In this document: positions 11,061 to 60,894 of the stretch, in pieces
Position numbering within the stretch: the first letter of the stretch is position 1
How the letters are laid out: each line of letters starts with the position of its first letter
Source: Lentibacillus amyloliquefaciens
GTDB lineage: Bacteria > Bacillota > Bacilli > Bacillales > Amphibacillaceae
Direction of reading: 5' to 3'
DNA: 64,000 nucleotides
Assembly (NCBI RefSeq): GCF_001307805.1
Contig: NZ_CP013862.1
Coordinates: 3,596,001-3,660,000 of the forward strand
The notes under the pieces: generated by a model
The model's input: only the letters and a program-made list of their open reading frames with translations
What the model was told of the DNA's origin: nothing
Database searches by the model: none
Program-made: the position numbers and the translations under genes

Positions 11061-11289
11061 CTAAGGAAAATCGTTTCATCATGGTGTGATTTGAGGCAGC
11101 ACCGGAACCTTTCAATCGTAATTGTATGATGTTTTTTCATAATCGTTTCAGGGTAAAGAAAAATAACTCCGTAAACCTTAAGACTCATTCATATAAAATC
11201 CTGAGCACAAGTAAATCGCTTTTATTCGAAGCAAACTGGCGTAATAATCGCCTATTTGTAGTTAAATATTCAAATTGTTCAAATAATGA

Positions 11290-11318
11290 TTGACACTGCA
11301 ATATTTCGTGAATATAAT
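11290..11318 (+). promoter_or_regulatory. Sigma-A promoter of the ectoine hydrolase gene
   Basis: A consensus TTGACA and TATAAT are 17 bases apart. The predicted start near 11325 gives a leader of about 170 bases that carries the operator and a cre-like site. Confidence 0.8.
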
Positions 11319-11331
11319 ATAATTAAACGAA

Positions 11332-11346
11332 TGTCGACAATCGACA
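11332..11346. promoter_or_regulatory. Operator candidate 1 for the FCD-type GntR regulator
   Basis: TGTCGACAATCGACA lies 13 bases after the -10 box of the doeA promoter. The identical 15-mer lies 17 bases after the -10 box of the gntR promoter (13922-13936). The half-site GTCGACAA recurs at 11435. Placement just after the transcription start suits repression. Confidence 0.65.
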
Positions 11347-11445
11347 GACTAGTCCAATTTACTTATATGAATAAATGTCGGTTCAATTCTAATATCCTAT
11401 TAATATAGTTCATTAAGAAGTATCTCCATATAACGTCGACAAATT

Positions 11446-11459
11446 AGTAAGCGTTTTCA
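11446..11459. promoter_or_regulatory. cre-like site in the doeA leader
   Basis: AGTAAGCGTTTTCA matches the CcpA site TGNNANCGNTNNCA except at the first base. It lies in the leader, where CcpA could act as a roadblock. Confidence 0.4.
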
Positions 11460-11497
11460 TAAAAGCAGTAAAAAGAACGATGGGGGAGGGATCATCT

Positions 11498-12685
11498 GTG
11501 TTGGCATTTCCTATTTCTGAATTTCATGAACGATTGAACCAAACAAAACGCAGGATGGCTGAGGCCGGGGTTGACTTGCTGATGGTAACAGACCCGGCTA
11601 ACATGAACTATTTGACAGGGTATGACGCATGGTCTTTTTATGTCCATCAAATGCTTATCGTGACCCTTGATGAAGAACAGCCGATTTGGATTGGACGCGG
11701 TCAGGATGCAAACGCAGCGCTTCATACGACATGGCTGGAGGAGAATCGTATCATTTCATACGGTGATGATTATATTCAGTCGTCTGTGAAACATCCAATG
11801 GACTTTATATGTGACGTTTTAAAACTGAATAACTATGATAAGAAGATAATAGCAGTTGAAATGGATGCATATTATTTTACGGCTAAAAATTATGTGCGGT
11901 TAACAGAAGGTCTTCCGGATGCCATCTTTAAAGACGGGACAAATATGGTTAACTGGGTGCGCATTATAAAATCTGACCGTGAAATTGCCTATCTTAAACA
12001 AGCTTCACGAATTTCGGAAAATGCTATGCAAGTTGCGTTTGATATGATTAATGAGGGTGTCAGAGAATGTGATGTTGTTGCAGAAATATCCCATGCACAA
12101 ATCAGCGGCACCGAAGATTTTGGCGGAGATTACCCGTCGATTGTTCCGCTCTTGCCGACCGGGGAAAAGACATCAGCGGCTCATCTGACCTGGTCTGATG
12201 ACAGATTCAGAGATGGCGACCCTGTCATAATCGAATTGGCTGGTGTGTACCGCCGTTACCATTCACCGCTTGCACGGACAGCTGTGATAGGCCGCCCGTC
12301 AGAGGATATGCAGTACGTTTCGGATGTCGTCCTGGATGGCATCAATACAACACTTAATGCGGTCCGCCCCGGCATAACATGCGGAGAGCTTGAAGGGGTC
12401 TGGCGCAGTGTGATTGAAAAAAGCGGCATTCGAAAGGAGTCGAGGATGGGTTATTCGGTAGGGCTTAATTATCCGCCTGACTGGGGTGAGCATACAGCGA
12501 GCCTTAGACCTGAAGACCAGACAGTTTTGGAACCGAACATGACCTTTCATCTGATTCCGGGCATCTGGATGGAAAAAATGGGTGTGGAGATCAGTGAATC
12601 ATTCCGTGTGACTGAAACAGGCTGCGAAGTTCTTGCCGAATTTCCGCGTGAACTCATGATCAAACCGAACATTCGGCTGGCATGA
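11498..12685 (+). CDS. doeA: Ectoine hydrolase (DoeA/EutD), M24-fold
   Basis: A 395-residue creatinase/aminopeptidase-fold protein. It matches the ectoine hydrolases that open the ectoine ring to N-acetyl-2,4-diaminobutyrate. The N-terminal creatinase domain has TDPANMNYLTGYDAWSFYV; the C-terminal pita-bread domain spans about residues 165-390. Metal-ligand positions of true M24 peptidases are altered: the usual Asp is Glu246 in IIELAGVY, and the next is His in YRRYHSPLART. This agrees with described ectoine hydrolases, which use a Glu nucleophile and no metal. GTG at 11498 is chosen because GGGGAGGG (11483-11490) lies seven bases before it and inside the longer ATG frame from 11480. Its promoter shares an operator with the downstream regulator. 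Confidence 0.85.
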   Translation: MLAFPISEFHERLNQTKRRMAEAGVDLLMVTDPANMNYLTGYDAWSFYVHQMLIVTLDEEQPIWIGRGQDANAALHTTWLEENRIISYGDDYIQSSVKHPMDFICDVLKLNNYDKKIIAVEMDAYYFTAKNYVRLTEGLPDAIFKDGTNMVNWVRIIKSDREIAYLKQASRISENAMQVAFDMINEGVRECDVVAEISHAQISGTEDFGGDYPSIVPLLPTGEKTSAAHLTWSDDRFRDGDPVIIELAGVYRRYHSPLARTAVIGRPSEDMQYVSDVVLDGINTTLNAVRPGITCGELEGVWRSVIEKSGIRKESRMGYSVGLNYPPDWGEHTASLRPEDQTVLEPNMTFHLIPGIWMEKMGVEISESFRVTETGCEVLAEFPRELMIKPNIRLA

Positions 12686-12744
12686 TACTTTGGGCTTAAG
12701 GAGATTGATTATGATTTTTGGCTTTTACCTGTCTGGCCCTTTTT

Positions 12745-12782
12745 AAAATAGCCGTACCAGCTGGCGCGTGGTACGGCTATTT
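12745..12782. terminator. Strong bidirectional terminator after doeA
   Basis: AAATAGCCGTACCA pairs perfectly with TGGTACGGCTATTT over a 9-base loop. It separates convergent doeA and the hydroxyacid dehydrogenase gene. Confidence 0.9.
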
Positions 12783-12791
12783 GTCGTTGTA

Positions 12792-13775
12792 TTATTTTTT
12801 CTCCCATGATTCAGGATTAACCAGATTGGGCGGCTTCTCATCGTTTATGCCGGCTTCAAGGTTTTGGGCGGCAAGCTCTGACATGGCAAGCTCGGTTTCA
12901 TGTGTGGACGAGCCCATGTGCGGGGTTGTGACCACATTATTCATTTTTAAGAGCGGGTTATCCGGCTCAACCGGCTCCCTCGCAAATACATCAAGACCGG
13001 CTGCGGTGATGTCCCCATTTTCGAGTGCTTCAATCAGATCTTTCTCCACAATGGTTTTGCCGCGCGATCCGTTAATGAAAATAGCCGATTGTTTCATCAG
13101 CTGAAATTCCCGTTTTCCGATCATACCTTCCGTTTCCTTTGTCAGCGGGGTGATCATACAGACAAAATCGGATTCCTGCAGCAGCTCATCAAGATTGCGA
13201 TAGCCTGCGGAATAAGCTTCTTCAGCATCCGGCTTCCGACTTCGGCTGTGATATAAAATATCCATGTCAAAGCCAAAATGTCCCCGCTGGGCAATGGCTT
13301 TTCCGATTCGTCCCATGCCGATGATGCCGAGTGTTTTGTGATGAATATTAATGCCATAGTGTTCTTCTCCGATTGCTTCAGCCTGCCAATGACCATTTTT
13401 GACAAAGTTGTCCAGTTCCGGAATGCGTCTGGCAGTTGCTGTAAGTATGCTGAACACGGCGTCTGCCACTGTGTCAGTGAGGATTCCCGGTGTGTTGGTT
13501 CCCATAACTTTCCGTTTTGTCATTTCATTCAATTCCAGGTTGTTGTATCCGACCGAGACATTGCTGATGACTTTCAGATTCGGAGCGTTATCAAGCAATT
13601 CACGGTCAACAGGCGTTTCTAGTCCGATAATTCCTTCTGCCTCACTGAGATGTTCCAAAAATTCAGGATCCTTTTTGGTGTCGATGTTTTTGAAAAAACC
13701 GACATCATATTTTTCTTTCAGATCATCCAGAACCGGCTGTTCTACCCGGTTGTATGCCACAATTTTCTTCTTCAA
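12792..13775 (-). CDS. D-isomer-specific 2-hydroxyacid dehydrogenase (glyoxylate/hydroxypyruvate reductase type)
   Basis: A 327-residue NAD(P)-dependent enzyme reducing a 2-keto acid to a D-2-hydroxy acid, or the reverse. The Rossmann motif is GMGRIGKA. The catalytic Arg lies in NGSRGKTIVE, Glu in FAREPVEPDN and His in TPHMGSSTHE. It closely resembles the D-glycerate dehydrogenase/GyaR group, but 2-keto-acid specificity cannot be fixed. The start has a weak site (GGAGGGTTTG). It diverges from the gntR gene, with the two -35 boxes 26 bases apart, and lies inside the ectoine region, so it may reduce a keto acid formed there. Confidence 0.85.
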   Translation of the reverse strand: MKKKIVAYNRVEQPVLDDLKEKYDVGFFKNIDTKKDPEFLEHLSEAEGIIGLETPVDRELLDNAPNLKVISNVSVGYNNLELNEMTKRKVMGTNTPGILTDTVADAVFSILTATARRIPELDNFVKNGHWQAEAIGEEHYGINIHHKTLGIIGMGRIGKAIAQRGHFGFDMDILYHSRSRKPDAEEAYSAGYRNLDELLQESDFVCMITPLTKETEGMIGKREFQLMKQSAIFINGSRGKTIVEKDLIEALENGDITAAGLDVFAREPVEPDNPLLKMNNVVTTPHMGSSTHETELAMSELAAQNLEAGINDEKPPNLVNPESWEKK

Positions 13776-13820
13776 ATCAAACCCTCCATTTCAAGCTGTC
13801 TTATATAGTCTCTTTCTTTT

Positions 13821-13849
13821 AAAATAGACGCAAATTAACTTAGAGTCAA
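13821..13849 (-). promoter_or_regulatory. Sigma-A promoter of the 2-hydroxyacid dehydrogenase gene
   Basis: On the minus strand TTGACT and TATTTT are separated by 17 bases, diverging from the gntR promoter. Confidence 0.55.
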
Positions 13850-13875
13850 TTAATTTCAAATTATCAAAATTTTGG

Positions 13876-13904
13876 TTGACAATGATAAACGTCTAAATTA
13901 TGAT
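13876..13904 (+). promoter_or_regulatory. Sigma-A promoter of the gntR-aminotransferase operon
   Basis: TTGACA and TATGAT are 17 bases apart and lie 18 bases upstream of the operator. Confidence 0.7.
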
Positions 13905-13921
13905 AATGGTAAGATGTTTTT

Positions 13922-13936
13922 TGTCGACAATCGACA
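13922..13936. promoter_or_regulatory. Operator candidate 2 for the FCD-type GntR regulator
   Basis: TGTCGACAATCGACA, identical to 11332-11346, sits between the promoter and the regulator start. This suggests autoregulation. Confidence 0.65.
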
Positions 13937-13974
13937 TAGAGCAATAAGATATTTACAGAAAGGAGCATTTGGTT

Positions 13975-14652
13975 TTGCAGCCTAATAGTGCTATTATGCA
14001 AAAACCATTAAGTGAGCTGATTGCTGATGAACTGAAGCAGAAGATCTGGAATGAAGAAATTCAGCTTGGTGAACGGCTGCTGGAAACAGATCTGGCGGAA
14101 AGTTATGATGTCAGCCGCAGCACAATCAGGGAAGCTCTGAAGATCCTTGAAAGTGAAGAGCTCGTTGTCAGCCAAGCACGAAAAGGAACTTACGTAGCTG
14201 ATTTCACCAATCAAGATATTAATGAAATGATTGAATTGCGGACGCTTCTCGAATCACATGCCTTTACGCAAGCGATAAACCGCCTTGAATCGCATCATAC
14301 GAAGGATTTGGAAGCAATCGTAGACGAGATGAAACAAAAGGCAGATGAAAAAGACTGGAACGGCTTATTTGATTTGGATATGAAGTTTCATAGTTATGTA
14401 GTCGGTTTATGCGGGAATACAAGAATCATAAAGATATATGATTCACTTCAGGTGCAAATCAGAACATTTCTGATGCATCTTGACAGGTACTACTCAAGCA
14501 CACAGGCATTTTATAATGAGCACAAACAATTGCTGGAAGCATTAGTCTCGAATGACGTGCATATTGTGAATGATAGAGTCAGAGAGCATATCGAATATGT
14601 CGAGACTAAACTGCTTGGGCAAAGTAGTGATATAGAATTTAAGGAGGTATGA
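13975..14652 (+). CDS. GntR-family regulator, FadR/FCD subgroup, of the ectoine region
   Basis: A 225-residue transcription factor. The N-terminal winged helix (about residues 10-70) has ETDLAESYDVSRSTIREALK. The C-terminal helical FCD ligand domain has ELRTLLESHAFTQA, a metal-type DLDMKFHSYVV segment and a later REHIEYVE. TTG at 13975 lies nine bases after AAAGGAG; a TTG at 13969 would be too close. It is followed after three bases by the aminotransferase gene, so the two are cotranscribed. Described ectoine catabolic regulators are of the MocR (EnuR) or Lrp/AsnC (DoeX) type; an FCD GntR here would be a different solution. The effector is unknown. Confidence 0.85.
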   Translation: MQPNSAIMQKPLSELIADELKQKIWNEEIQLGERLLETDLAESYDVSRSTIREALKILESEELVVSQARKGTYVADFTNQDINEMIELRTLLESHAFTQAINRLESHHTKDLEAIVDEMKQKADEKDWNGLFDLDMKFHSYVVGLCGNTRIIKIYDSLQVQIRTFLMHLDRYYSSTQAFYNEHKQLLEALVSNDVHIVNDRVREHIEYVETKLLGQSSDIEFKEV

Positions 14653-14655
14653 CAA

Positions 14656-16008
14656 ATGAGTAAAAAATTTGCTAATGTCAAAACCAATCTGCCGGGACCA
14701 AAGGCCAAAGAAATTCTCGACCGCAGACATAACATTGTGCCCGGTGGTGTCAGCTATGGTGTGCCGACATTTGTGGATACGGCGAAGGGTGCACTCCTGA
14801 AAGACGTTGACGGGAATCAGTTCATTGATTTTGCAGGTGCAATCGGTGTCAATAATGTTGGGCATAGCCATGATAATGTTGTAAGCGCTTTACAAGATCA
14901 GGCTGAAAAGTATATTCATACAGGTTTCAATGTCATGATGTACGACCCGTATATTGAATTTGCGGAGAAACTGGCAGAACTTGCGCCAGGCAGTTTTGAC
15001 AAGAAGGTCATGTTTCTGAACAGCGGGGCAGAAGCTAACGAAAACGCGATTAAAGTTGCGCGTAAATATACGGAACGTCAGGCTGTCGTTTCATTTACCG
15101 GTGGCTTTCATGGACGCACATTGATGACAATGTCAATGACAGCTAAAGTGAAGCCATACAAATTTGAATATGGTCCGTTTGCTCCGGAAGTATATCATGC
15201 GCCGTTTCCGTATAATTATCGCCGGCCGGAGTCAATGAGTGAAGATGCCTATGCAGATTATTTATTGAAACAAGTAGAAGATTTCTTCATTACAGAAGTT
15301 GATCCGAGTCAGGTGGCCGCCTTCATAATGGAGCCTGTACAGGGCGAGAGCGGTTTTATCATTCCAAATAAAAAGTTCGTCCAAGGGGTATATGAATTGT
15401 GCAAACAGCATGGCATCCTGTTTATTGCTGATGAAATCCAGACAGGGTTTGGCCGGACCGGCAAGTATTTTGCAATGGAGCACTTCGGTGTTGAACCTGA
15501 TCTGGTTACTGTTTCCAAATCGATGGCTGCCGGGCTGCCGATCAGCGGTGTCATTGGACGCCAGGAAGTAATGGATGGTACAGGAGCCGGTGAATTGGGC
15601 GGCACATACTGCGGAAGTCCACTTGGCTGCCGTGCAGGCTTGGCAGTGCTGGAAGTCATGGAAGAAGAAAACTTGAATGGTCGCGGCGCTGCAATTGGCC
15701 AAAAGGTCATGGAAAAATTCAGCACCATGTATGACCGGTTTGACGCGATTGGTGATTATCGCGGACTTGGCGCTATGTGTGCGCTTGAGTTTGTCAAAGA
15801 CCGAAGCAGTAAAGAACCGGATAAAGAGATGGCACCCCAGGTATTGAAAGAGGCACGTGAACGTGGGCTGATTGCGCTGAAAGCAGGTGTTTATGATAAT
15901 GTCGTTCGTTTGTTGATGCCGCTTGTGATTACCGATGAGCAGCTTGAGGAAGGACTTGATATTCTGGAAGAGGCGATTGAAGCGGCAACAGCAAGTGTGA
16001 AGGTTTAA
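14656..16008 (+). CDS. Class-III aminotransferase: diaminobutyrate transaminase (DoeD) or 4-aminobutyrate transaminase
   Basis: A 450-residue PLP enzyme of the omega-aminotransferase group. The phosphate/aromatic segment is NSGAEANENAIKVAR, the PLP-Asp lies in FIADEIQTGFGRTG and the Schiff-base lysine is Lys288 in VSKSMAAGLP. Overall it is closest to GabT-like proteins, which move the terminal amino group of GABA, ornithine or 2,4-diaminobutyrate to 2-oxoglutarate. The ribosome site is a full AAGGAGG. Linked to an ectoine hydrolase and a semialdehyde dehydrogenase, its likely substrate is 2,4-diaminobutyrate, giving aspartate semialdehyde (the DoeD step). Genuine GABA transamination is the alternative. 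Confidence 0.8.
   Translation: MSKKFANVKTNLPGPKAKEILDRRHNIVPGGVSYGVPTFVDTAKGALLKDVDGNQFIDFAGAIGVNNVGHSHDNVVSALQDQAEKYIHTGFNVMMYDPYIEFAEKLAELAPGSFDKKVMFLNSGAEANENAIKVARKYTERQAVVSFTGGFHGRTLMTMSMTAKVKPYKFEYGPFAPEVYHAPFPYNYRRPESMSEDAYADYLLKQVEDFFITEVDPSQVAAFIMEPVQGESGFIIPNKKFVQGVYELCKQHGILFIADEIQTGFGRTGKYFAMEHFGVEPDLVTVSKSMAAGLPISGVIGRQEVMDGTGAGELGGTYCGSPLGCRAGLAVLEVMEEENLNGRGAAIGQKVMEKFSTMYDRFDAIGDYRGLGAMCALEFVKDRSSKEPDKEMAPQVLKEARERGLIALKAGVYDNVVRLLMPLVITDEQLEEGLDILEEAIEAATASVKV
14879..14895. promoter_or_regulatory. Intragenic cre-like near-palindrome
   Basis: TTGTAAGCGCTTTACAA inside the aminotransferase gene resembles CcpA sites (TGTAANCGNTTNCA) with one extra base in the right arm. Intragenic cre sites are known in B. 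subtilis, but this could be coding coincidence. Confidence 0.25.
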
Positions 16009-16119
16009 GCAATCGAAATTAAGGCTAGAGTTCTCTAAACGGGCTGGTACAAAATCTTAAGCAATTCGGGGAAAACCATTTGCCAGCCAATTTACTGAAA
16101 ATACAGGAGGGACGCAGTT

Positions 16120-17562
16120 ATGGCAGTACAAACAAAAAATTATTCAATGTACATTAATGGTGAGTGGTCAGGCAGTGAGCTTGATACAATGGACGTTGTG
16201 AATCCGTCAAATGGTGAAGTAATCGGGACCGTGCCATACGGCGGTGAAAACGAAGCAGAACAGGCTGTTGATGCGGCTTATGAGGCGTTTCAGTCATGGT
16301 CTGAACTGACGGCATACGACAGGGCCGGATACCTGGAAAAACTGAATCAGCTGATGCTTGATAATCAGGAAGAAATGGCTGAAATAATGACGCTGGAAAT
16401 GGGCAAACCGATAAACGAATCGAGAGGGGAAGTTAAGTACGCTGCTTCATTCCTTAAATGGTTTGCCGAAGAAGGGAAACGCATTTACGGTGAAACGATC
16501 CCTACCCACGCAGCCGGCAAGCGTCTGCAAGTGTGGAAAAAGCCAGTCGGTGTTGTGACCGCTATTACACCATGGAATTTCCCGGCAGCTATGCTGACAC
16601 GTAAGATGGGGCCGGCTCTTGCATCAGGTTGCACATTTATTATGAAACCATCCAGCGACAGTCCGCTGACAGCCGTTAAACTGATGGAACTTGTTGAAGA
16701 AGCCGGATTTCCAAAAGGCGTCGTCAACCTTCTAACAGGCTCATCATCCAAAATCGCCAAAGTATCTATGGAAAACAAGAAAGTCCGCAAAGTAACATTT
16801 ACAGGCTCTACAGAGGTTGGCAAAACGTTAATTCGTCAGAGTGCCGACCAGGTGAAAAAATTATCGCTTGAACTTGGCGGGCATGCACCACTGGTCGTCC
16901 TTGATGATGCGGACATTGATCAGGCAGTAGAGGGAACAGTCGCTTCCAAGTTCCGCAATTCCGGCCAGACATGCATTTGCGCCAACCGGGTGTATGTTCA
17001 GGAAGGCATTTACGATGAGTTTGTCGAAAAGCTGACAGCAGCTGTTAAGGAGTTAAAAGTCGGCGATGGCATGGACGAATCCAATCAAATTGGCCCATTA
17101 ATTAATCAGGATGGTCTCGATAAGGTGAAACGCCATGTTGATGATGCCGTTTCAAAAGGGGCACAAGTGGAAGTCGGCGGTGAAACTGTAACTGAATATG
17201 AAGGCCTCTTTTATCAGCCGACTGTCATCAAAGATGTGAATCAATCAATGGTTGTCATGCAGGAAGAAACGTTCGGCCCTGTCACACCTGTTGAGAAAAT
17301 CACATCAGATGAGGAAGCGGTCAAAGTAGCTAATGACACACCATTTGGTCTGGCAGCATACGTCTTTACGGAAAATGTCTCCAGAGGCACACAGCTGATT
17401 GAAAAGCTCGATTTTGGCATTGTTGGCTGGAATAATGGTGCGCCATCTGCTGCACAGGTGCCATTCGGCGGCATGAAAGAAAGCGGTATTGGTCGTGAAG
17501 GTGGTCATGAAGGCATTGAAGAATTTGTTGAGTCACAATATGTATCAATTGGCATGAAATAA
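16120..17562 (+). CDS. Succinate/aspartate semialdehyde dehydrogenase (GabD/DoeC type)
   Basis: A 480-residue NAD(P)+-dependent aldehyde dehydrogenase. The N-terminal part has ITPWNFPAAM, the general base is Glu251 in LELGGHAP and the nucleophile is Cys285 in SGQTCICANR. The C-terminal signature FGGMKESGIGREGG is that of the GabD family. AGGAGG lies eight bases upstream of the ATG. It follows the aminotransferase by 111 bases without a terminator. In an ectoine pathway it would oxidise L-aspartate semialdehyde to L-aspartate (DoeC step); if the transaminase is GabT, it would make succinate from succinate semialdehyde. Family resemblance alone favours GabD, context favours DoeC. Confidence 0.85.
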   Translation: MAVQTKNYSMYINGEWSGSELDTMDVVNPSNGEVIGTVPYGGENEAEQAVDAAYEAFQSWSELTAYDRAGYLEKLNQLMLDNQEEMAEIMTLEMGKPINESRGEVKYAASFLKWFAEEGKRIYGETIPTHAAGKRLQVWKKPVGVVTAITPWNFPAAMLTRKMGPALASGCTFIMKPSSDSPLTAVKLMELVEEAGFPKGVVNLLTGSSSKIAKVSMENKKVRKVTFTGSTEVGKTLIRQSADQVKKLSLELGGHAPLVVLDDADIDQAVEGTVASKFRNSGQTCICANRVYVQEGIYDEFVEKLTAAVKELKVGDGMDESNQIGPLINQDGLDKVKRHVDDAVSKGAQVEVGGETVTEYEGLFYQPTVIKDVNQSMVVMQEETFGPVTPVEKITSDEEAVKVANDTPFGLAAYVFTENVSRGTQLIEKLDFGIVGWNNGAPSAAQVPFGGMKESGIGREGGHEGIEEFVESQYVSIGMK

Positions 17563-17586
17563 GACCTCAGAAAGGATGGGTGTCTG

Positions 17587-17973
17587 ATGAAAGAAGTCAT
17601 CCAAACGCTGAATGCACCTCAACCGGGAGGACCGTATTCACAAGGCGTTAAAACCGAATCGTTCATCTTCGTCTCCGGACAGGATGGCATCAAGCCGAGT
17701 GGTGAGTCTGTAGGGGCATCGATTGCTGCTCAAACTACTGCGGCCCTTCGGAATATCAAACATATACTGGCGGAAGCTGATGCTGATTTATCAAGTATGG
17801 TATATGTGACATGCCATTTGACCGATTTGAATGATGAAACAGTCCGCGAATTCAATGAAGCCTATGAATCTTATTTCAAAAATGTTGACGTAAAGCCTGC
17901 CAGGATTACGATCGGAAGCCAGTTATTGGAAACAGATGTTGAAATAACGGCAATTGCCGCAGTGGAGCGGTGA
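17587..17973 (+). CDS. RidA/YjgF/YER057c/UK114-family enamine/imine deaminase
   Basis: A 128-residue protein of the RidA family. Trimeric members hydrolyse reactive enamines and imines released by PLP dehydratases. Conserved elements are PGGPYSQGVK near the start, the FVSGQ segment and the Arg in KPARITIGS that binds the carboxylate. It starts 24 bases after the dehydrogenase gene with GAAAGGATG upstream, so it is in the same operon. Its presence suits the nearby EutB-type PLP dehydratase, whose product would be an unstable enamine. No terminator is obvious; a GC-rich repeat begins 76 bases later. Confidence 0.88.
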   Translation: MKEVIQTLNAPQPGGPYSQGVKTESFIFVSGQDGIKPSGESVGASIAAQTTAALRNIKHILAEADADLSSMVYVTCHLTDLNDETVREFNEAYESYFKNVDVKPARITIGSQLLETDVEITAIAAVER

Positions 17974-18049
17974 ATTTTATAGTAGCTTTTTTCTCAAGGA
18001 TTGTTTTTTTTACAAAAAATCCATAAACTGCGATGCACTTGCTGTGACT

Positions 18050-18237
18050 CCGCTCCGGAAATACACTACAGCTTTCCGCGGGCGGCAGTCAATTCCTGCG
18101 GGAAAAGCAATGGCTGAAGAATCCCGCAGGACAAGGAATACTGCGACAGCGACACATCTTCGTGAGAAAAAGTGTTTTTCTTTTTCGAGGAAGCTGAAGC
18201 GTTGCCCTAAGGTGAGCGACTGCCCGGAGCGGAAATC
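18050..18237. repeat. Dispersed GC-rich repeat, CCGCTCCGGAAAT family (copy 1)
   Basis: It starts with CCGCTCCGGAAATACACT, then TTTCCGCGGGCGGCAGTC. It ends GACTGCCCGGAGCGGAAATC, so the ends form an inverted repeat. The internal GAGGAAGCTGAAGCGTTGCCC block also occurs in the larger copy at 39183-39441. It fills half of the 414-base gap between ridA and the amidohydrolase gene. No coding sequence is credible here. Confidence 0.75.
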
Positions 18238-18335
18238 AACCCTGTCGCAGTTTATATCAATTATGATGATTACAGAGCAACAAAATTTATGAAAAAAGCT
18301 TTAATGTAAATACCAGCTTAAAGAGATAGAGTGGC

Positions 18336-18364
18336 GGAATCGGCTTTAATGCCGATTCTATCTT
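18336..18364. terminator. Hairpin before the amidohydrolase gene
   Basis: GAATCGGC pairs perfectly with GCCGATTC over TTTAAT and is followed by TATCTTCTT. It ends about ten bases before the ribosome site at 18374, so it could be a terminator of the upstream unit or a leader hairpin. Confidence 0.5.
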
Positions 18365-18387
18365 CTTAAAACAGGGAGGGGGTCAGA

Positions 18388-19584
18388 TTGACGTCCAGCG
18401 CTATCAAATCAGCGGCAAAACATATGCAGGATCAACTGTCACAATGGCGTCAGCATTTGCACCGCCATCCGGAATTAAGTTTTCAGGAAGTTGAAACGGC
18501 ACGATTTATTGCAAAAAATCTTGAACAGATACCTGGTATGAACGTGACTACGGGAGTCGGCTTTCCAACAGCAATAATGGGAACGATTTCATCAGGTTCC
18601 GGTCCGACCGTCGTTATCAGGGCAGATATGGATGCCTTGCCGATACAGGAAGAAAATGAATGTAGTTATAAATCGATGAACAACGGGATTATGCATGCGT
18701 GCGGTCATGATGCACATTCAACGATTGGATTGGGGACTGCCAGTTTAATAGGTAATTTGTTTGAACAAGGCGAGTTGGAGGGGACGGTTAAATTTCTTTT
18801 TCAACCGGCGGAAGAGATGGCAGATCAATACGGGTCAACAGGGGCACCGTACATGATCAAAGCCGGTGCTTTGGAAGAGGCTGATTGGGCACTTGCTTTG
18901 CACATGAGTCCGGAAGATGAGCCGGGTCAGGTGAAAGTTCATGACGGGTACAGCATGGCCAATGTTGATGTGTTTGAAGCTGTGGTCACTGGCAGCGGCG
19001 GTCACGGTGCATATCCGCACCTGGGCAAAGATCCTGTCTGGATGCTCGGCCCGGTGCTTCAGGCCTTGCATGGAATAGTGGCACGCCGCGTATCACCGCT
19101 CGAATCAGCTGTTATAAGTGTGGGCAGTATTCAAAGCGGGTCAGCAAGCAATGTGATTCCCTCAGAAGTACATGTGACAGGGACAATTCGCAGCTATCAT
19201 CCGGATACGCGTGAATTACTGCACAATGAACTGGAAAAAGCATTTTCATTAGTCCGGCCGCTTGATGGGGACTATCAATTAACTATCAAGCCTGAAGATC
19301 CTGCCCTTTATAATGATGCGGGTGTAAATCATATCATCAGGCAAACCATCAGTGAATTATATCCTGATTTTCACATGCTTGATACACCATTTGGATTGGG
19401 CGGCGAGGATTTTGCCCATATGACTCAAGAAGTTCCTGGTGCCATGTTTTTCCTTGGGTGTGCTGTTGGCGATGACGCGGTTCGCGATTTGCACACACCG
19501 CATTTTGATATTGATGAAAACGTGTTGCCTATCGGGGCAGCAATTCTGGCAGAGTCAGCCCGGCGTCTTTTAAGTAATCAATGA
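18388..19584 (+). CDS. M20D amidohydrolase; candidate N-acetyl-diaminobutyrate deacetylase (DoeB-like role)
   Basis: A 398-residue metal-dependent amidohydrolase of the AmhX/HipO/N-acyl-amino acid deacylase group. It has RHPELSFQE near the start, the metal motifs RADMDALP and MHACGHDAH, Glu-Glu in PAEEMAD and a His in GEDFAH late in the chain. The dimerisation domain lies around residues 190-300 (GSGGHGAYPH). TTG at 18388 has a strong G-rich site. Described DoeB/EutE proteins are of the aspartoacylase-like family, absent here. This enzyme therefore could be a non-orthologous replacement that removes acetate from N-acetyl-2,4-diaminobutyrate. That role is inferred from position only. Confidence 0.78.
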   Translation: MTSSAIKSAAKHMQDQLSQWRQHLHRHPELSFQEVETARFIAKNLEQIPGMNVTTGVGFPTAIMGTISSGSGPTVVIRADMDALPIQEENECSYKSMNNGIMHACGHDAHSTIGLGTASLIGNLFEQGELEGTVKFLFQPAEEMADQYGSTGAPYMIKAGALEEADWALALHMSPEDEPGQVKVHDGYSMANVDVFEAVVTGSGGHGAYPHLGKDPVWMLGPVLQALHGIVARRVSPLESAVISVGSIQSGSASNVIPSEVHVTGTIRSYHPDTRELLHNELEKAFSLVRPLDGDYQLTIKPEDPALYNDAGVNHIIRQTISELYPDFHMLDTPFGLGGEDFAHMTQEVPGAMFFLGCAVGDDAVRDLHTPHFDIDENVLPIGAAILAESARRLLSNQ

Positions 19585-19585
19585 C

Positions 19586-19680
19586 TTCGCGCAGTTATAC
19601 TGCTATTTCGCGCGATCTCACAGCCAATTCGCGCGGTTACCATAAGAATTCGTGCGATCCCATGACAAATTCGCGCAGAA
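19586..19680. repeat. Short tandem array with exact 21-bp period, TTCGCG family (copy 2)
   Basis: TTCGCG or TTCGTG cores start at 19586, 19607, 19628, 19649 and 19670, each exactly 21 bases apart. Units read like TTCGCGCGATCTCACAGCCAA. It sits directly after the amidohydrolase stop and before the dehydratase gene. Confidence 0.85.
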
Positions 19681-19737
19681 GCACCTATATCCAGAAGGCA
19701 ATTAACTGCCCTCATGACTTCAAAAAGGGGGGATAGA

Positions 19738-20736
19738 ATGACAGCGAAACAAGTTACTCAGCAGGATGTATGGGCGGCTAAACAGCGCATAGCACCGATT
19801 GTTTCTAAATCGCCGTTAATTTACTCTGATCAACTATCCGACTATGCAGGGATTCCGGTTCATTTAAAACTGGAAAATCTTAATGTCAGTCATTCGTTTA
19901 AAATCAGGGGAGCAGCCAATAAGATTCTCAGTTTATCACCTGAAGAGCAAGAGCGTGGTGTGACAACATTTTCAACTGGCAATTTCGGGATGAGTGTTGC
20001 GTATGTTGCCGGACAGCTCGGTATTGATGCCATCATTTGCATTTCTAATCGCGTGCCCAAAGCAAAAGTGGAAGCATTAAAAAGCTCAGGAGCACAGATC
20101 GAAATTCATGGTGTTTCTCAGGATGATGCCGAAAAGCGCAGTTATCAGCTTGAAAAAGAGCATGGGCTGACAGTGGTCCACCCATTTGACGATGCGCATA
20201 TCATTGCCGGTCAAGGCACAATTGGACTGGAGTTACTGGAAGATTTGCCTGATGTGGATACGGTAATCGGCGGCTTATCGGGCGGCGGACTGCATTCAGG
20301 TCTCGGTGTGGCACTGAAATCGGCTGCGTCAGGGATTAAAGTTCTTGGCGCCTCAACTGAAAAAGGTCCCGCAATGTATGAAAGTATTCAAAAAGGCAAG
20401 CCGGTTGTGATAGAAGAGCAGGATACACTTGCTGATAGTCTCCTTGGCGGTGTCGGATTGGAAAATAAATACACTTTCAATATGGTACAGCAATATGTTG
20501 ATGACATCCAGCTGCTTAACGAAGCGGAGATTGGCGTGGGGATGGCTTTCATGCTTGATAAACATCGAATGATGGTGGAAGGTGCAGCAGCCTCAGGCAT
20601 CGGTGCCATTCTGAATAACCGCTTCAGTCTTGGTTCCAGAGCTGTCGTCGTTATCAGTGGGTCAAGTGTTGATACGGAAACAATCATGAATGTGATGGAA
20701 AAATATGGTGATGCAATCCCGGAATTTAAATACTAG
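19738..20736 (+). CDS. eutB: EutB-like PLP dehydratase (threonine/serine dehydratase fold type II)
   Basis: A 332-residue PLP enzyme of the threonine dehydratase/serine racemase fold. The Schiff-base lysine is Lys55 in SHSFKIRGAAN, the substrate loop is STGNFGMSVAYVAG, and the phosphate-binding glycine loop is GGLSGGGLHSG. It ends without an ACT domain. ATG at 19738 has AAGGGGGG upstream. Its resemblance and its linkage to doeA suggest EutB, the dehydratase of hydroxyectoine utilisation clusters, possibly acting on a 3-hydroxylated diaminobutyrate or aspartate. Serine or threo-3-hydroxyaspartate dehydratase activity is an alternative. It is followed by dat after 14 bases. Confidence 0.72.
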   Translation: MTAKQVTQQDVWAAKQRIAPIVSKSPLIYSDQLSDYAGIPVHLKLENLNVSHSFKIRGAANKILSLSPEEQERGVTTFSTGNFGMSVAYVAGQLGIDAIICISNRVPKAKVEALKSSGAQIEIHGVSQDDAEKRSYQLEKEHGLTVVHPFDDAHIIAGQGTIGLELLEDLPDVDTVIGGLSGGGLHSGLGVALKSAASGIKVLGASTEKGPAMYESIQKGKPVVIEEQDTLADSLLGGVGLENKYTFNMVQQYVDDIQLLNEAEIGVGMAFMLDKHRMMVEGAAASGIGAILNNRFSLGSRAVVVISGSSVDTETIMNVMEKYGDAIPEFKY

Positions 20737-20750
20737 AGGGAGGTTTTACA

Positions 20751-21605
20751 GTGAGTAAGATGTTATACAATGACCAGATTATGGAGCGGGACAACAATAT
20801 TAACATTGAGGACCGCGCTTATCAGTTTGGTGATGGGGTGTATGAAGTCATTGGTGTTTATGACGGCACCCCGCTGATGATGGATGAACATATGGAGCGG
20901 CTGGAAAGAAGTGCCCGGGAATTGCGGTTGAATCTGCCTCTTCCGGTCAGCGAAATCAAAAATAACCTTGAGAAGCTGGTGGATGTTAATGAACTTGAAG
21001 AAGGCATTATTTATATGCAAGTGTCCCGTGGTATCGCGTCGCGTGAACATGCGTTTCCTGAACCCGGCACTCAGGCTGTCACAATTGCTTATACACGTGA
21101 AGAAACCCGGCAATCAGACCTTGAAGATAAAGGCGGCACCGCAGTACTGACAGAAGATATCCGCTGGCTGCGCTGTGATATTAAAACACTCAACCTGCTC
21201 CCGAACGTGATGGCGAAACAAAAAGCAGTGGAAAATAATTCGGTTGAAGCGATTCTCCATCGTGGTGATATTGTAACAGAAGCGAGCGCATCGAATGTTT
21301 TTATTGTCAAAAACGGTGAGCTCTATACACACCCGGCTGATAATTATATTTTAAATGGTATTACACGCAAATCAATCATCCAATTATGTAATGAGCTGAA
21401 TATTAAAGTGAATGAACAGACCTATACGGTCGATGAGCTCCTTAGTGCTGATGAAGTTTTCATTTCTGCAACAAAACAGGATATTATTCCGATTTTGAAA
21501 GTTGACGACCAAATGATAGGTGATGGCAAGCCCGGTAAGATTACTCACAAGATTTTAAAATCGTTCCGTTCACTTTATCAAAAAGAAATTAGAAATAAAG
21601 CTTAA
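20751..21605 (+). CDS. dat: D-amino acid aminotransferase (class IV)
   Basis: A 284-residue fold-type IV PLP enzyme that interconverts D-amino acids and 2-keto acids, usually D-alanine with D-glutamate or pyruvate. Tyr31 lies in FGDGVYEV, the Schiff-base lysine is Lys145 in DIKTLNLLPNV, and Glu lies in VTEASASNVF. This agrees with the Bacillus D-aminotransferase numbering. The GTG start has AGGGAGG at good spacing. It is placed between the EutB-like dehydratase and an alanine racemase-family gene, forming a D-amino-acid-centred set. It could supply D-glutamate for peptidoglycan or handle a D-amino acid from hydroxyectoine. Confidence 0.88.
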   Translation: MSKMLYNDQIMERDNNINIEDRAYQFGDGVYEVIGVYDGTPLMMDEHMERLERSARELRLNLPLPVSEIKNNLEKLVDVNELEEGIIYMQVSRGIASREHAFPEPGTQAVTIAYTREETRQSDLEDKGGTAVLTEDIRWLRCDIKTLNLLPNVMAKQKAVENNSVEAILHRGDIVTEASASNVFIVKNGELYTHPADNYILNGITRKSIIQLCNELNIKVNEQTYTVDELLSADEVFISATKQDIIPILKVDDQMIGDGKPGKITHKILKSFRSLYQKEIRNKA

Positions 21606-21675
21606 AAAGTGTGCTTGTCACTGCCGTTAAACTTCATATCATATCGCGTCTCATGATGCGTAGGGGGGAAAAGTT

Positions 21676-22809
21676 TTGGCACATCCATCAACTATAACGG
21701 CGCATGGACCAACTGTAGCGGAAGTCGACCTTGAGGCATTTAAGGAAAACGTCAGGACATTTAAAAGGTTGGTTGGAAATAGTAGGCTCATGGCTGTTAT
21801 TAAAACAAATGCCTATGGACACGGTGTTGTTCCTTCCGGTGAGGCAGCTGTACGGGCCGGTGCTGATTGCCTTGGTGTGACAATGGTCGAGGAAGGTGCA
21901 CAGCTCAGGGCGGCTGGAATTGATGTGCCCATTCATATTTTAAGTTCAATTATGAGCTGGCAGGCAGCGGATCTTGTCGCCTATGATCTTACTGCGTCCG
22001 TCTCCTCCCTTGACTTGGCACATGCCCTGAATAGAGAAGCCGTCCGGCAAAATAAGGCGGCCTCCGTTCACTTGAAAATCGATACCGGTCTCCACCGGTT
22101 CGGCATCCAGCCTGAAGAAGCTCTTGATTTTTGCCGGGCTTCATACGAATTACCCGGTCTGGAATGGGAAGGGATTTATACCCATTTTTCCAGCGCTGAT
22201 GAAGGTGAATGGAACACAACTGAAAAGCAATATGCATCATTTATGAATACAATCGCGACGCTGAAGAAAGACGGATACTATTTTCCGGTGCGTCACGCCG
22301 GGGCATCCACGATTGCTATCGAGCGGAGGGATATGTATTTGGATATGGTCAGATGCGGTATTGCTTTGTTTGGCTACCCGCCTGAAGAACGGCAAGACAG
22401 CATGATTTCATTGAAACCGGTGATGGGGCTGAAGTCACGTCTTCTGCATGTGCATGAACTTCCTCCCGGTTCGCCCGTTGGATATGGCGGCAGTTATGTT
22501 ACATCAGACTATGAAAAAATAGCAGTCGTGCCTATCGGGCATGGCGATGGATACCACCGGGCTTTGTCCAACAATGGGCAAATGCTTGTACGCGGCCAGC
22601 GTGCTGAAATAATTGGGGAGGTATCACTGGACCAGACGCTGATCAATGTGACCGGCATACCGGGTGTGAGTGCGGGTGATGAGGTTGTTTTAATGGGTGA
22701 GCAGCAAGGTGATTATATTTCCGGACGTGAAATAGCCGGCTGGATGGATAGTATCGTTGATGAAGTACTGTCAGGCTTAAAAGAACGGGTTGAAAGAATC
22801 TATAAATAA
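21676..22809 (+). CDS. alr: Alanine racemase family protein
   Basis: A 377-residue fold-type III PLP racemase. The Schiff-base lysine is Lys43 in VIKTNAYGHG. The C-terminal half has VGYGGSYVT, corresponding to the catalytic Tyr region. The usual VPIGYADGY motif reads VPIGHGDGY here, an unusual His/Gly. The TTG start has AGGGGGG upstream. A house-keeping alr would normally lie elsewhere, so this linked copy may be a catabolic racemase acting with the neighbouring aminotransferase and dehydratase. Racemisation of alanine is the default; a broader or different substrate is possible. Confidence 0.85.
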   Translation: MAHPSTITAHGPTVAEVDLEAFKENVRTFKRLVGNSRLMAVIKTNAYGHGVVPSGEAAVRAGADCLGVTMVEEGAQLRAAGIDVPIHILSSIMSWQAADLVAYDLTASVSSLDLAHALNREAVRQNKAASVHLKIDTGLHRFGIQPEEALDFCRASYELPGLEWEGIYTHFSSADEGEWNTTEKQYASFMNTIATLKKDGYYFPVRHAGASTIAIERRDMYLDMVRCGIALFGYPPEERQDSMISLKPVMGLKSRLLHVHELPPGSPVGYGGSYVTSDYEKIAVVPIGHGDGYHRALSNNGQMLVRGQRAEIIGEVSLDQTLINVTGIPGVSAGDEVVLMGEQQGDYISGREIAGWMDSIVDEVLSGLKERVERIYK

Positions 22810-22865
22810 AGATATAATAATTAAAATCAGAATATTTTAATAAAAATGAAAAGAGGGGTTAGGTG

Positions 22866-24413
22866 ATGGACTTCTTATCAGTCGTACCGCCGATTGTTGC
22901 GGTTGTTTTGGCTATTGTGACCAAGCGTGTATTGCTGTCACTCTTTATCAGTATATGGGTCGGCGGGCTGATTGCAGCAGGCGGCAACCCGTTTGAAGCA
23001 GTCAGTGTCACATTTACTTGGATAAAAGATGTCATGATTGATCCGTGGAATGCACGTTTCCTTGTGATGACTGCATTACTCGGGTGTGGTGCTGCATTCA
23101 TGTTTAAAACCGGTGGGTCACAAGGGCTGATTAACGTTTTGGAGAGTAGATTAACCACTGGAAAACGCGTGCAGTTTTTATCTTACTTCTTAGGGCTTAT
23201 CATCTTTTTTAATGACTATGTAAATTCTGTGATTGTTGGCAATGCTTCAAAAGACATTGCTGCCAAGCATAAAATTTCAAGGGAAAAATTATCTTATGTA
23301 CTTGATTCAACAGCTGCACCGATTGCCACCATCGGCCCTGTTTCCGACTGGATCGGCTTTCAGGTATCATTGATCGCGGGCGCTTTTGGCAGCCTTGCGA
23401 TTGTCGGGCTGGAACCATATTTTGCTTTTCTCCAATCGATTCCGTGGAACTTTTATGCGATTTTATGTTTGCTGGCGGTTCCAATGATTATTGCGGGTAA
23501 GGATTTCGGACCGATGGCAAAAGCAGAGGAACGTGCCAAAGAAACAGGCAAACTGATTCCAGAGGGGTCCACGCCACTGTCTTCAGTCGGAGAAGACCTT
23601 GGGGAACCACATAAAAAAGATGCGAGTGTCTGGAACTTTATCTTGCCGCTTGTTGCGCTTATTTCAGTAAGTATGTGGGCTTTATGGTATGTTGGCGGCG
23701 GTGCAGAAGGCAATTCAATCATGGATGCGCTTGCTGAAACGGATGTTTCCGTGGCGCTGACATGGGGTGCTTTTGCCATGACAGGTGTCGGGCTCATTAT
23801 GGGGCTTATCCAGGGCATGAGTCTTCGGGATTGCGAAGATACCCTGCTTGGAGGGATCAGAACGATGCTTCCGGCGCTGATTATTATTCTGCTTGCCTGG
23901 TCAATCGGTACCGTCACCTCAGAACTTGGAACAGCTGAATTTGTCGTCTCCGCAACAGAAGGGTGGATGACAGCGGCTCTCTTGCCATTTTTGATTTTTA
24001 TCATTGCAATGTTTATTTCATTTGCGACAGGTACTTCGTGGGGTACGATGTCGATTTTGACTCCAATTGCTATTCCATTGGCGTTTAACTTTGGCGGTGA
24101 AGAACTGATTCCGATTGTTATCGGTGCTATTTTCGCAGGTGCTATATTCGGGGATCATGTTTCGCCAATATCCGATACGACAGTTATGGCATCTATTTTT
24201 GCTGAATCTGATCACATTGCCCATGTTAATACACAAGCACCTTACGCACTTGTTCCGGCAAGTATTGCAGGTGTGATGTATTTGTTGTATTCCGTAGTCG
24301 GAAGCAGTATCGTGCTCTTAATCGCCGGTATTGTTGCCCAGTTCTTCATTTTGCGTTACTTGGGCAACCGGCATGCTAAAAAACATAATAATAGTGAACA
24401 CAAAATTGCCTAG
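22866..24413 (+). CDS. nhaC: Na+/H+ antiporter, NhaC family (copy 1)
   Basis: A 515-residue membrane protein with about twelve helices. Typical NhaC elements are IFFNDYVNSVIVG, STAAPIATIGPVSDW, FATGTSWGTMSI and the GDHVSPISDTTVMAS block. The ATG at 22866 is used rather than the GTG three bases before it. It begins 56 bases after alr, with GAGGGG upstream, and may be the last gene of the ectoine-linked operon. NhaC members exchange Na+ for H+, but several transport organic anions or amino acids with Na+. Within a catabolic cluster it could be a substrate transporter. Confidence 0.85.
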   Translation: MDFLSVVPPIVAVVLAIVTKRVLLSLFISIWVGGLIAAGGNPFEAVSVTFTWIKDVMIDPWNARFLVMTALLGCGAAFMFKTGGSQGLINVLESRLTTGKRVQFLSYFLGLIIFFNDYVNSVIVGNASKDIAAKHKISREKLSYVLDSTAAPIATIGPVSDWIGFQVSLIAGAFGSLAIVGLEPYFAFLQSIPWNFYAILCLLAVPMIIAGKDFGPMAKAEERAKETGKLIPEGSTPLSSVGEDLGEPHKKDASVWNFILPLVALISVSMWALWYVGGGAEGNSIMDALAETDVSVALTWGAFAMTGVGLIMGLIQGMSLRDCEDTLLGGIRTMLPALIIILLAWSIGTVTSELGTAEFVVSATEGWMTAALLPFLIFIIAMFISFATGTSWGTMSILTPIAIPLAFNFGGEELIPIVIGAIFAGAIFGDHVSPISDTTVMASIFAESDHIAHVNTQAPYALVPASIAGVMYLLYSVVGSSIVLLIAGIVAQFFILRYLGNRHAKKHNNSEHKIA

Positions 24414-24540
24414 AAGCTTAGCACGGCAATCAGGGAGCTCGAACGTGAGCTTAGCGGTGAGCTGAAGTTATTGAAAAGGCAACGTGAGTGTGAGTATGTC
24501 TCTCGAAGCCGGAAATGAGTTTTTGAATGGCAAAAAGACA

Positions 24541-24662
24541 TCGAGAGTGACTCTCGAGTCCATTTCAATGGGAATGTAACATCGAAACGTCCTCGAGAGC
24601 GGTTATCGAGTCCAATTCATGGCGCGAGCAGTATCAAAAAAGCCTCGAGAGCAATTCTCGAG
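24541..24662. repeat. 52-bp tandem repeat, each unit with a CTCGAG hairpin
   Basis: TCGAGAG arms start at 24541, 24593 and 24645. The matching right arms (CTCTCGAG, TTATCGAG, TTCTCGAG) start at 24551, 24603 and 24655, so the period is exactly 52. The first and third units form perfect 7-8 bp stems; the middle one is decayed. A weaker unit may precede at about 24489. The 450-base gap (24414-24863) contains this array, then a terminator and the promoter of the next gene; I see no coding sequence. Confidence 0.75.
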
Positions 24663-24761
24663 GCCAAACTGCACTGTAAATCCATCGAAAAGGACTTAAG
24701 AACATGTCTTAACATCAGTGAGAGCAGTCGTCCCCAGTTACTAAAACAACTTTTAAGCTCA

Positions 24762-24798
24762 GCCAGTCTTGTCCTAACGGGGGAGGGCTGGTTTTTTG
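24762..24798 (+). terminator. Rho-independent terminator
   Basis: AGCCAGTC pairs with GGGCTGGT (one wobble) and is followed by TTTTTT. It ends the nhaC unit. Confidence 0.65.
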
Positions 24799-24825
24799 TT
24801 GCAGACGGCGCAATTTTGTATAATA
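24797..24825 (+). promoter_or_regulatory. Sigma-A promoter of the aldo/keto reductase gene
   Basis: TTGTTG and TATAAT are 17 bases apart, 38 bases before the ATG. It begins inside the T run of the preceding terminator. Confidence 0.55.
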
Positions 24826-24863
24826 GATATGTGACCGTAAGAATTTGAATTGGAGGGTACGTT

Positions 24864-26007: not shown

Positions 26008-26076
26008 GTTAGAAGTGCGCTTTTGACTAATTATTTTTCAGAATATTATCTAAAGGATGATTGAGAGGAGAATTTG

Positions 26077-31282: not shown

Positions 31283-31615
31283 GTGAATCACCTCCAAATT
31301 GATATATGGAACTTCCGCTTTAAACGGCGGTGAAAATGATAAATCATGCTCATGAACAGGAAACAACTGCTGTTCAACACCTCAGTGGCCACAAAGAGGA
31401 ATCTCAAAGGAAGTATCTTATCTTCCTTCACTTATTATGATATGACATTTAGTGATAAAAATAAATAATTATAACTTGTAAAATTGATATTAAATACTTA
31501 TATCATGTGATAAGTTTATGTTTTTGGGTTAGAAAGCATTCCTGTAATGATAAAAGCAAGTACTGTTTTACTGCTCTCACAAATATAATGATATTAGGAT
31601 TGCAGGAGGGATTCG
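31283..31615. other. AT-rich divergent intergenic region
   Basis: This 333-base stretch separates divergent genes. Apart from the two ribosome sites at its ends I see no clear promoter pair, repeat or coding sequence. AT-rich blocks around 31440-31520 could hold weak promoters. Confidence 0.4.
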
Positions 31616-50543: not shown

Positions 50544-50572
50544 AGGATGATGGTCTCAGGAGGCGTTGGCTA

Positions 50573-60855: not shown

Positions 60856-60894
60856 CATGTAAAATACGAACCGAGTAAGTTAGGAGGGTACATG

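Follow-up and report, generated by a model that had tools for sequence, protein, structure and literature searches.

A gene cluster that very probably forms a single regulon for the catabolism of ectoine and hydroxyectoine occupies positions 11290 to 24413 of the stretch of Lentibacillus amyloliquefaciens DNA analyzed here (the window; 64,000 nucleotides, positions 3596001 to 3660000 of the 3.86-Mb single-contig genome). Ectoines are common salt protectants and also a nitrogen-rich nutrient. The gene order is a DoeA-like protein, a D-2-hydroxyacid dehydrogenase on the opposite strand (HADH), an FCD-type GntR regulator, GabT, GabD, RidA, an M20D amidohydrolase, an EutB-like dehydratase, a D-amino-acid transaminase (Dat), an alanine racemase (Alr), and an NhaC-type transporter. 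The assignment to one regulon is based on the DoeA-like protein, the kinship of the M20 protein, the similarity to EutB, and a shared operator; the activities of the enzymes are predicted from their sequences. The overall explanation that we favor, with modest confidence, is that the regulon is repressed and that a module of D-specific enzymes replaces EutC in it.

An earlier note on this DNA had described the cluster as a complete but noncanonical ectoine and hydroxyectoine utilization region. Its observation of the locus is confirmed, and its interpretation is partly supported. All of the genes that it named were found as intact frames (11480 to 24413); a perfect TTGACA-17-TATAAT promoter begins exactly at the start that it gave, 11290; and the regulator is indeed an FCD-type GntR, with no aminotransferase domain in the protein. 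The ectoine and hydroxyectoine reading gains support from the placement of the DoeA-like protein on a branch apart from the genome's own M24 proteins and from an M20 protein that is shared across clusters. However, HADH, Dat, and Alr were missing from its gene list, and the statement that every step has a candidate takes no account of these three or of the absence of EutC and EutA at the locus.

In a survey of the family, DoeA was found at an E value of 1e-100 or better in 86 of 159 genomes. A search with the window's DoeA yielded 255 stretches, of which the top 80 were retained; these gave 75 loci, 12 resembling the window (type I) and 63 of a second kind (type II). The full type I set consists of all 39 other places with DoeA identities of 65% to 92% (L121 to L159), the 12 included; a weaker set consists of 20 of 56 weaker places (L160 to L179), four of which are shared with the 63 type II loci. 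Of the 39 further loci, 38 preserve all or part of the arrangement seen in the window (L145 has DoeA alone), and thus the clustering of the genes is not due to chance. The nearest named relative at the locus is Lentibacillus persicus, with a DoeA identity of 92%.

The DoeA-like protein and the M20 amidohydrolase

The DoeA-like protein scored 392 bits against the solved DoeA of Halomonas elongata (6twj; 45% identity) and 118 bits against the best Xaa-Pro dipeptidase, and it is 47% to 48% identical to the DoeA of Sinorhizobium meliloti. We built a tree of 48 selected rows by a quick search, with support from the Shimodaira-Hasegawa-like approximate likelihood ratio test (SH-aLRT) only, using as the outgroup the genome's own four other M24 proteins, which have long branches. 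A branch with a support of 99 separated these four paralogues from 6twj, from the S. meliloti protein annotated as DoeA, and from the rows of type I, type II, and haloarchaeal loci. In this check, which the earlier note had proposed, the protein therefore groups with DoeA and not with the genome's other M24 proteins. The five residues that bind metal in M24 peptidases, which we take to be D, D, H, E, and E, correspond to E252, P263, Y325, I359, and S372 in the window protein and to E, P, Y, M, and T in 6twj; two of the four paralogues (L001 and L002) keep all five ligands. Relatives are frequently recorded as "M24 family metallopeptidase" or "Xaa-Pro peptidase," and such an identity would make the cluster a scavenger of peptides and amino acids. 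The difference in bit scores, the tree, and the replaced ligand positions all contradict this reading, which we consider highly improbable, and we rejected the Xaa-Pro peptidase identity. We file the protein as a member of the DoeA branch, not as a certified DoeA, with ectoine hydrolysis as its predicted activity. Its gene probably starts at the GTG at 11498, because GGGGGAGGG at 11482 to 11490 resembles a ribosome-binding site and because the ATG at 11480 is mostly unconserved in the upstream sequences compared. Further DoeA proteins, 46% to 47% identical to the window's, lie beside other M20D proteins in Bacillus (L028, 3871 to 6317) and Shinella (L213, 6992 to 9353).

No match to DoeB, an AstE/AspA-type enzyme, was found in the genome with two models that detected the controls in Escherichia coli and Haloferax. 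The M20 protein is the candidate to take its place. When M20 proteins were counted as related at an identity of at least 42% to the window's, relatives were present in 11 of the 12 type I and 59 of the 63 type II loci, so that M20 homologues do co-occur with DoeA, as the earlier note had suggested checking. The M20 proteins in clusters of both types share some 44% identity or more with the window's; the values for the genome's two other M20D proteins above the model cut-off are 33.5% to 34.6%. In a tree of 40 selected rows (again a quick search with SH-aLRT only), the type I rows form one clade (support of 100) adjoining type II, with the genome's two paralogues beyond a branch with a support of 99; the type II proteins form no single group. 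The replacement of DoeB by an M20 enzyme had been presented as a special feature of this locus. The genome does lack a DoeB match, but the exchange is shared by the 59 type II loci, and we rejected it as a novelty: it is usual in Bacillales clusters and has already been published, tentatively, in the available text of PMC13188858.

An M20 deacetylase for ectoine is also an established annotation, in that the NCBIfam family DoeB2 (NF038260), an M20-type N-acetyl-diaminobutyrate deacetylase, belongs to the same M20D superfamily. Against this model the window's M20 scored 233.7 bits and one type II M20 scored 240, with a cut-off of 550; we assign the window protein to an M20D lineage other than DoeB2. 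Because the M20 proteins of four haloarchaeal clusters are just 25% to 27% identical to the window's, the recruitment of an M20 protein to DoeA seems to have taken place on at least two occasions.

The operator and the two types of cluster

Matches to sigma-A promoters were scored over 11200 to 25000. The two best lie before doeA (11290) and before gntR (13876); a third, at the end of alr (22790), has the same score as the second. The sequence TGTCGACAATCGACA follows promoters 1 and 2 at distances of 13 and 17 bases, and these copies, at 11332 and 13922, are the only exact ones in the window. The motif TGTCGA-N3-TCGACA occurs in 29 of the 39 type I loci, 21 of which have a single site in each of two places, 5' of doeA and between hadh and gntR. 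Among the 75 loci, all 12 of type I have it and none of the 63 others does; it is also absent from all 20 loci of the weaker set. The four type I loci without gntR (L131, L144, L145, and L152) are all free of the site. From the position of these operator-like sites, we infer that they are bound by a repressor, presumably the FCD-type GntR, which would be released by an intermediate of the pathway. From gntR to nhaC the plus-strand genes are separated by gaps of 3 to 129 bases except for the 414 bases between ridA and the M20 gene, within which there is a weak terminator-like hairpin (18336 to 18359).

Genes downstream were counted over 34 type I loci (L124 was completed by L206; L137, L143, L147, and L154, which end early, and L145 were left out). 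Dat and Alr were present in all 34, EutB in 32, GntR in 31, M20 in 30 (plus one partial), GabD in 29, GabT in 23, and RidA in 19 (plus one partial). HADH was found in 38 of the 39 loci, again except L145. Thus, HADH, Dat, and Alr are the most constant members of type I clusters besides DoeA (34/34 each). RidA, which the earlier note had seen as fitting the cluster, is present in the window but is an inconstant member. Beyond Alr, a TtuC-type dehydrogenase occurs in 25 of the 33 loci with room for it (one is cut by the end of the region), and a complete NhaC occurs in at least 12; several loci carry both (e.g., L206), and we rejected the idea that the two are alternatives in one slot. Eleven of the 34 loci have no GabT, and seven of these have an omega-aminotransferase upstream of doeA, in two cases beside an alanine dehydrogenase. 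Neither EutC nor EutA was found in any of the 39 type I loci or in the window at an E value of 1e-3 (positive controls were found in the same search), and the type I loci also contained no cystathionine-gamma-synthase-like (CGS-like) or homoserine-dehydrogenase-like (HSD-like) genes.

A typical type II cluster contains EutB, PucR, DoeA, EutC, a CGS-like protein, M20, an HSD-like protein, an aldehyde dehydrogenase, and a BCCT or MFS transporter. None of the 63 had a relative above threshold of HADH, GntR, GabT, RidA, Dat, Alr, TtuC, or NhaC. EutC was present in 47 and EutB in 46: both were present in 43 and neither in 13, four had EutC alone (L015, L018, L023, and L029), and three had EutB alone (L016, L031, and L043), most of these seven being short or cut stretches. 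The CGS-like pyridoxal-phosphate (PLP) enzyme (PRK08249) was found in 55 and the HSD-like protein in 52 of the 63 (e.g., L037 and L033), with no GabT relative over 60% identity. No locus examined holds EutC together with Dat-Alr; in these loci the two are mutually exclusive. The hydroxyectoine step can thus be tested by comparing type I with type II.

D-specific enzymes and competing pathways

In HADH, which is nearest to glyoxylate/hydroxypyruvate and 2-ketogluconate reductases, R238 is conserved in 38 of 38 rows and E267 and H286 are conserved in 37; we take all three to be catalytic. The cluster Dats have R98, H100, and K145 in all 34 aligned rows and Y31 in 33 (one gap), and Alr has K43 and Y270 in 33 of 33; for R98, H100, Y31, K43, and Y270 we assume the roles usual in these enzymes. 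The cluster Dats also share A240, K242, and D244 (34/34), which correspond to S, T, and E in the Dat encoded elsewhere in the genome, and the cluster enzymes may act on a different substrate. Because the genome also encodes an Alr (407 bits) and a Dat (334 bits) outside the cluster, a role in the cell wall need not be assumed for the copies within it. The TtuC proteins, nearest to tartrate dehydrogenase/decarboxylase, were over the cut-off of 470 in the three cases scanned (472 to 483). According to the available text of PMC6562126, a predicted tartrate dehydrogenase adjoins a potential malate-semialdehyde dehydrogenase in a carnitine locus of Acinetobacter.

The EutB-like protein is 44% identical to S. 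meliloti EutB, and its Lys63 is present in 33 of 33 aligned rows; the closest dehydratase model is EutB, the runner-up model scoring 277 bits, and we file the protein as EutB-like. We think it somewhat probable, given the distribution of these genes, that the D-amino-acid and D-hydroxy-acid module stands in for EutC. In the pathway that we propose, DoeA would open the ring to give N-acetyl-(3-hydroxy-)2,4-diaminobutyrate, the M20 enzyme would remove the acetate, and GabT and then GabD would work on the gamma-amino end. EutB would dehydrate 3-hydroxy-diaminobutyrate and RidA would hydrolyze the imine, and the presumed reduction step of EutC would be taken over by Dat, Alr, and HADH, joined by TtuC in 25 of 33 relatives. 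Both substrates would yield 4-amino-2-oxobutanoate, hydroxyectoine by way of EutB and ectoine by way of Alr and Dat. HADH would reduce this compound to (R)-4-amino-2-hydroxybutanoate, GabT and GabD would convert that to D-malate semialdehyde and then to D-malate, and TtuC would decarboxylate D-malate to pyruvate. A D-hydroxy acid that is formed early and oxidized late fits such a route, and the haloarchaeal clusters described below, in which a distant D-2-hydroxyacid dehydrogenase accompanies DoeA and M20, also count in its favor; nevertheless, the D-malate route itself is speculative. Equally tentative is the broader possibility of an undescribed pathway to pyruvate through D-configured C4 intermediates (D-diaminobutyrate to D-malate) in Lentibacillus and in genera related to it; a haloarchaeal analogue would have been assembled independently, and an FCD-GntR repressor would act on TGTCGA-N3-TCGACA. 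The genome has an ectoine synthase, and the cell therefore probably makes ectoine as well.

Several other readings of the same genes were weighed. Dat, Alr, and RidA might simply replace EutC: EutB and RidA would produce 4-amino-2-oxobutanoate, Dat would aminate it with D-alanine to D-diaminobutyrate, Alr would both convert this to the L form and supply the D-alanine, and GabT and GabD would lead to aspartate, HADH and TtuC having side functions. The mutual exclusion of EutC and Dat-Alr favors this scheme, as does the joint occurrence of EutB and EutC in type II clusters (only seven of the 63 have one of the two), and the omega-aminotransferases in seven of the 11 GabT-less loci, two with alanine dehydrogenase, would fit an alanine amino-group shuttle. 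However, as mere replacements for EutC, Dat and Alr should track EutB, as EutC usually does, and two loci without EutB (L134 and L144) retain Dat, Alr, and TtuC; moreover, the scheme leaves HADH (38/39) and TtuC (25/33) unexplained. We consider it possible but rather unlikely. Hydroxyectoine might also be degraded by a tartrate/glycerate route, in which GabT and GabD would act first to give 3-hydroxyaspartate, which would be deaminated by EutB, or converted by Alr and Dat to oxaloglycolate and then by TtuC and HADH to glycerate. The nearest relatives of HADH and TtuC agree with this, and EutB relatives include 3-hydroxyaspartate dehydratases. But the glycerate kinase in the window, 25 kb away, had no relative at an E value of 1e-10 in the 59 plus 75 loci (the query found itself as a control), so that linkage to a glycerate kinase was rejected as support, and the FAD/Fe-S protein of the haloarchaeal clusters stays unexplained. 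This route is unlikely.

The remaining alternative is that a gamma-aminobutyrate (GABA) or mixed amino-acid operon happens to lie beside an ectoine gene, with gabT-gabD for GABA, M20 acting on N-acyl amino acids, and Dat-Alr acting on D-amino acids. GabT and GabD do exceed the curated cut-offs for GABA transaminase and succinate-semialdehyde dehydrogenase, families that fit GABA metabolism better, and the window's GabT is the only one in the genome above the TIGR00700 cut-off. For this reason DoeD and DoeC, the types to which the two had been assigned in the earlier note, hold as roles and not as families. Yet the same operator precedes both doeA and the operon, the M20 protein is close kin of M20 proteins from clusters without such a gabT, and the best model for the dehydratase is EutB. 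The MocR-type GabR expected for a gabTD operon is absent here, the regulator being the FCD-type GntR. We regard a GABA operon as quite unlikely.

Besides the GABA-pathway scores, a number of observations count against a repressed ectoine regulon with a D-specific module. The DoeA-like protein falls below the curated NCBIfam cut-off (TIGR02993, 491.5 versus 613), a cut-off also missed by a type II protein (524.7), by other Gram-positive and Shinella proteins (416 to 441), and by a haloarchaeal protein (470.6). The EutB-like protein is likewise below both of its cut-offs (PRK07476, Table 1; TIGR02991, 346.6 versus 413.35). An exact operator is lacking in ten of the 39 type I loci, six of which have gntR (L133, L138, L139, L140, L142, and L154); M20 is missing in three and EutB in two of the 34 loci (the latter being the EutB-less pair named above), and the DoeA of L145 stands without other cluster genes. 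Two full-length proteins of the ornithine cyclodeaminase (OCD) family elsewhere in the genome, 24% to 29% identical to EutC over the aligned part, are in principle a source of imine reductase, and the genome-wide search for EutA ran without a positive control. Neither Dat nor Alr is annotated in the four haloarchaeal stretches read. As for D-malate, the route has no obvious gain over a direct route to aspartate, and the window has no clustered TtuC, the genome's nearest being a 44%-identical paralogue elsewhere that is spread over two frames; the route is thus without a clear last step and weaker for this strain. The match to the paralogue (C1:3498724 to 3499763, outside the window) covers two overlapping frames near M20-like and aldehyde-dehydrogenase-like genes.

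Known clusters, coordinates, and neighboring genes

The available text of Boas Lichty 2026 (PMC13188858) describes a putative Bacillales cluster, pucR-eutBCD-atf-abgB-thrA-adh, from a small group of species, without EutE, and calls it tentative; it treats Gram-positive ectoine catabolic clusters as provisional, without biochemical confirmation, and also includes putative archaeal ectoine clusters. We take its abgB amidohydrolase to be the M20 gene. The main text does not mention Lentibacillus, GntR, RidA, or a racemase. As far as that text describes it, the PucR-type cluster resembles the window in having DoeA/EutD, EutB, an amidohydrolase, and an aldehyde dehydrogenase and in having no DoeB/EutE and no EnuR. 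It differs in that the window has an FCD-GntR for PucR, GabT-GabD-RidA for the CGS-like and HSD-like genes, Dat-Alr (with HADH and TtuC) for EutC, and NhaC for MFS, BCCT, UehPQM, or EhuABCD. None of the PucR-type hallmarks (PucR, EutC, CGS-like, and HSD-like) is among the window's genes. With the proteobacterial eutABCDE/doeABCD clusters (H. elongata and S. meliloti), the window shares the DoeA branch, EutB, and the aminotransferase and dehydrogenase roles; unlike them, its genome has no DoeB match and its locus has no EutC, EutA, MocR-type regulator, or EhuABCD. Elsewhere, the available text of PMC10203224 cites Sinobaca as an ectoine consumer, and that of a 2018 review (PMC5924519) gives the hydroxyectoine step as merely envisioned.

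The haloarchaeal clusters, on plasmids of Haladaptatus, Halorussus, and Haloprofundus (L180, L183, L184, and L185), have DoeA, a D-2-hydroxyacid dehydrogenase on the opposite strand, M20, and a threonine dehydratase in all four cases, and Rid in both loci whose stretch reaches that far. They differ in that their HADH, like their M20, is distant (27% to 29% identical to the window's), the sole dehydratase scanned is nearest to ilvA, and three of the four have GdhB and an annotated FAD/Fe-S protein; the one such protein scanned is nearest to YdiJ (514 bits, with a cut-off of 1350).

Two points are new here, the regulon as delimited by its operator and the mutual exclusion of EutC and Dat-Alr; neither was found in the open-access literature searched. 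The locus adds a second, differently built Gram-positive ectoine cluster with an exact operator and a candidate deacetylase, and it raises the puzzle of why D-amino-acid and D-hydroxy-acid enzymes travel with an ectoine hydrolase.

Table 1. Coordinates of promoters, operators, and genes of the cluster (window positions)
Feature	Position	Strand	Evidence or remark
Promoter TTGACA-17-TATAAT (11290-11318) and operator TGTCGACAATCGACA (11332-11346)	11290-11346	+	5' of doeA; 12/12 consensus positions
doeA-like, M24/creatinase fold, ectoine hydrolase branch	11480-12685	+	Scores, tree, ligand positions
HADH, D-2-hydroxyacid dehydrogenase (GhrB/2-ketogluconate reductase-like)	12792-13775	-	
Promoter TTGACA-17-TATGAT (13876-13904) and operator TGTCGACAATCGACA (13922-13936)	13876-13936	+	5' of gntR; 11/12 positions
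FCD-type GntR regulator, presumed repressor of both promoters	13969-14652	+	
GabT-type omega-aminotransferase, putative DoeD role	14656-16008	+	PRK06918, 758 bits (cut-off, 676)
GabD-type semialdehyde dehydrogenase, putative DoeC role	16120-17562	+	TIGR01780, 656 bits (cut-off, 646)
RidA-family imine/enamine hydrolase	17587-17973	+	TIGR00004, 100.5 bits (cut-off, 106); Pfam above cut-off
M20D amidohydrolase, presumed N-acetyl-diaminobutyrate deacetylase in DoeB's place	18388-19584	+	
EutB-like PLP dehydratase	19714-20736	+	PRK07476, 392.7 bits (cut-off, 413)
Dat, D-amino-acid transaminase, genome's second copy	20751-21605	+	TIGR01121, 368 bits (cut-off, 277)
Alr, alanine racemase, genome's second copy	21676-22809	+	TIGR00492, 336 bits (cut-off, 168)
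NhaC-type Na+/H+ antiporter-family transporter	22863-24413	+	

Other genes in the window were noted in passing. On the minus strand at 29065 to 31366, a ComA-family (2R)-phospho-3-sulfolactate synthase adjoins a MmgE/PrpD-family gene, an unusual pair; frames resembling the two also lie side by side, as judged by eye, in L211 (7311 to 9573). The glycerate kinase (49360 to 50998, plus strand, together with the next frame) is followed by a frame of 141 residues that aligns solely with the final quarter of a GntP permease (profile positions 338 to 438 of 440) and is probably a truncated permease. An AbgT-family transporter was identified by scanning at 26074 to 27636, and inspection of the sequence pointed to a second AbgT-type transporter at 60811 to 62409 and another NhaC-type transporter at 52884 to 54437.

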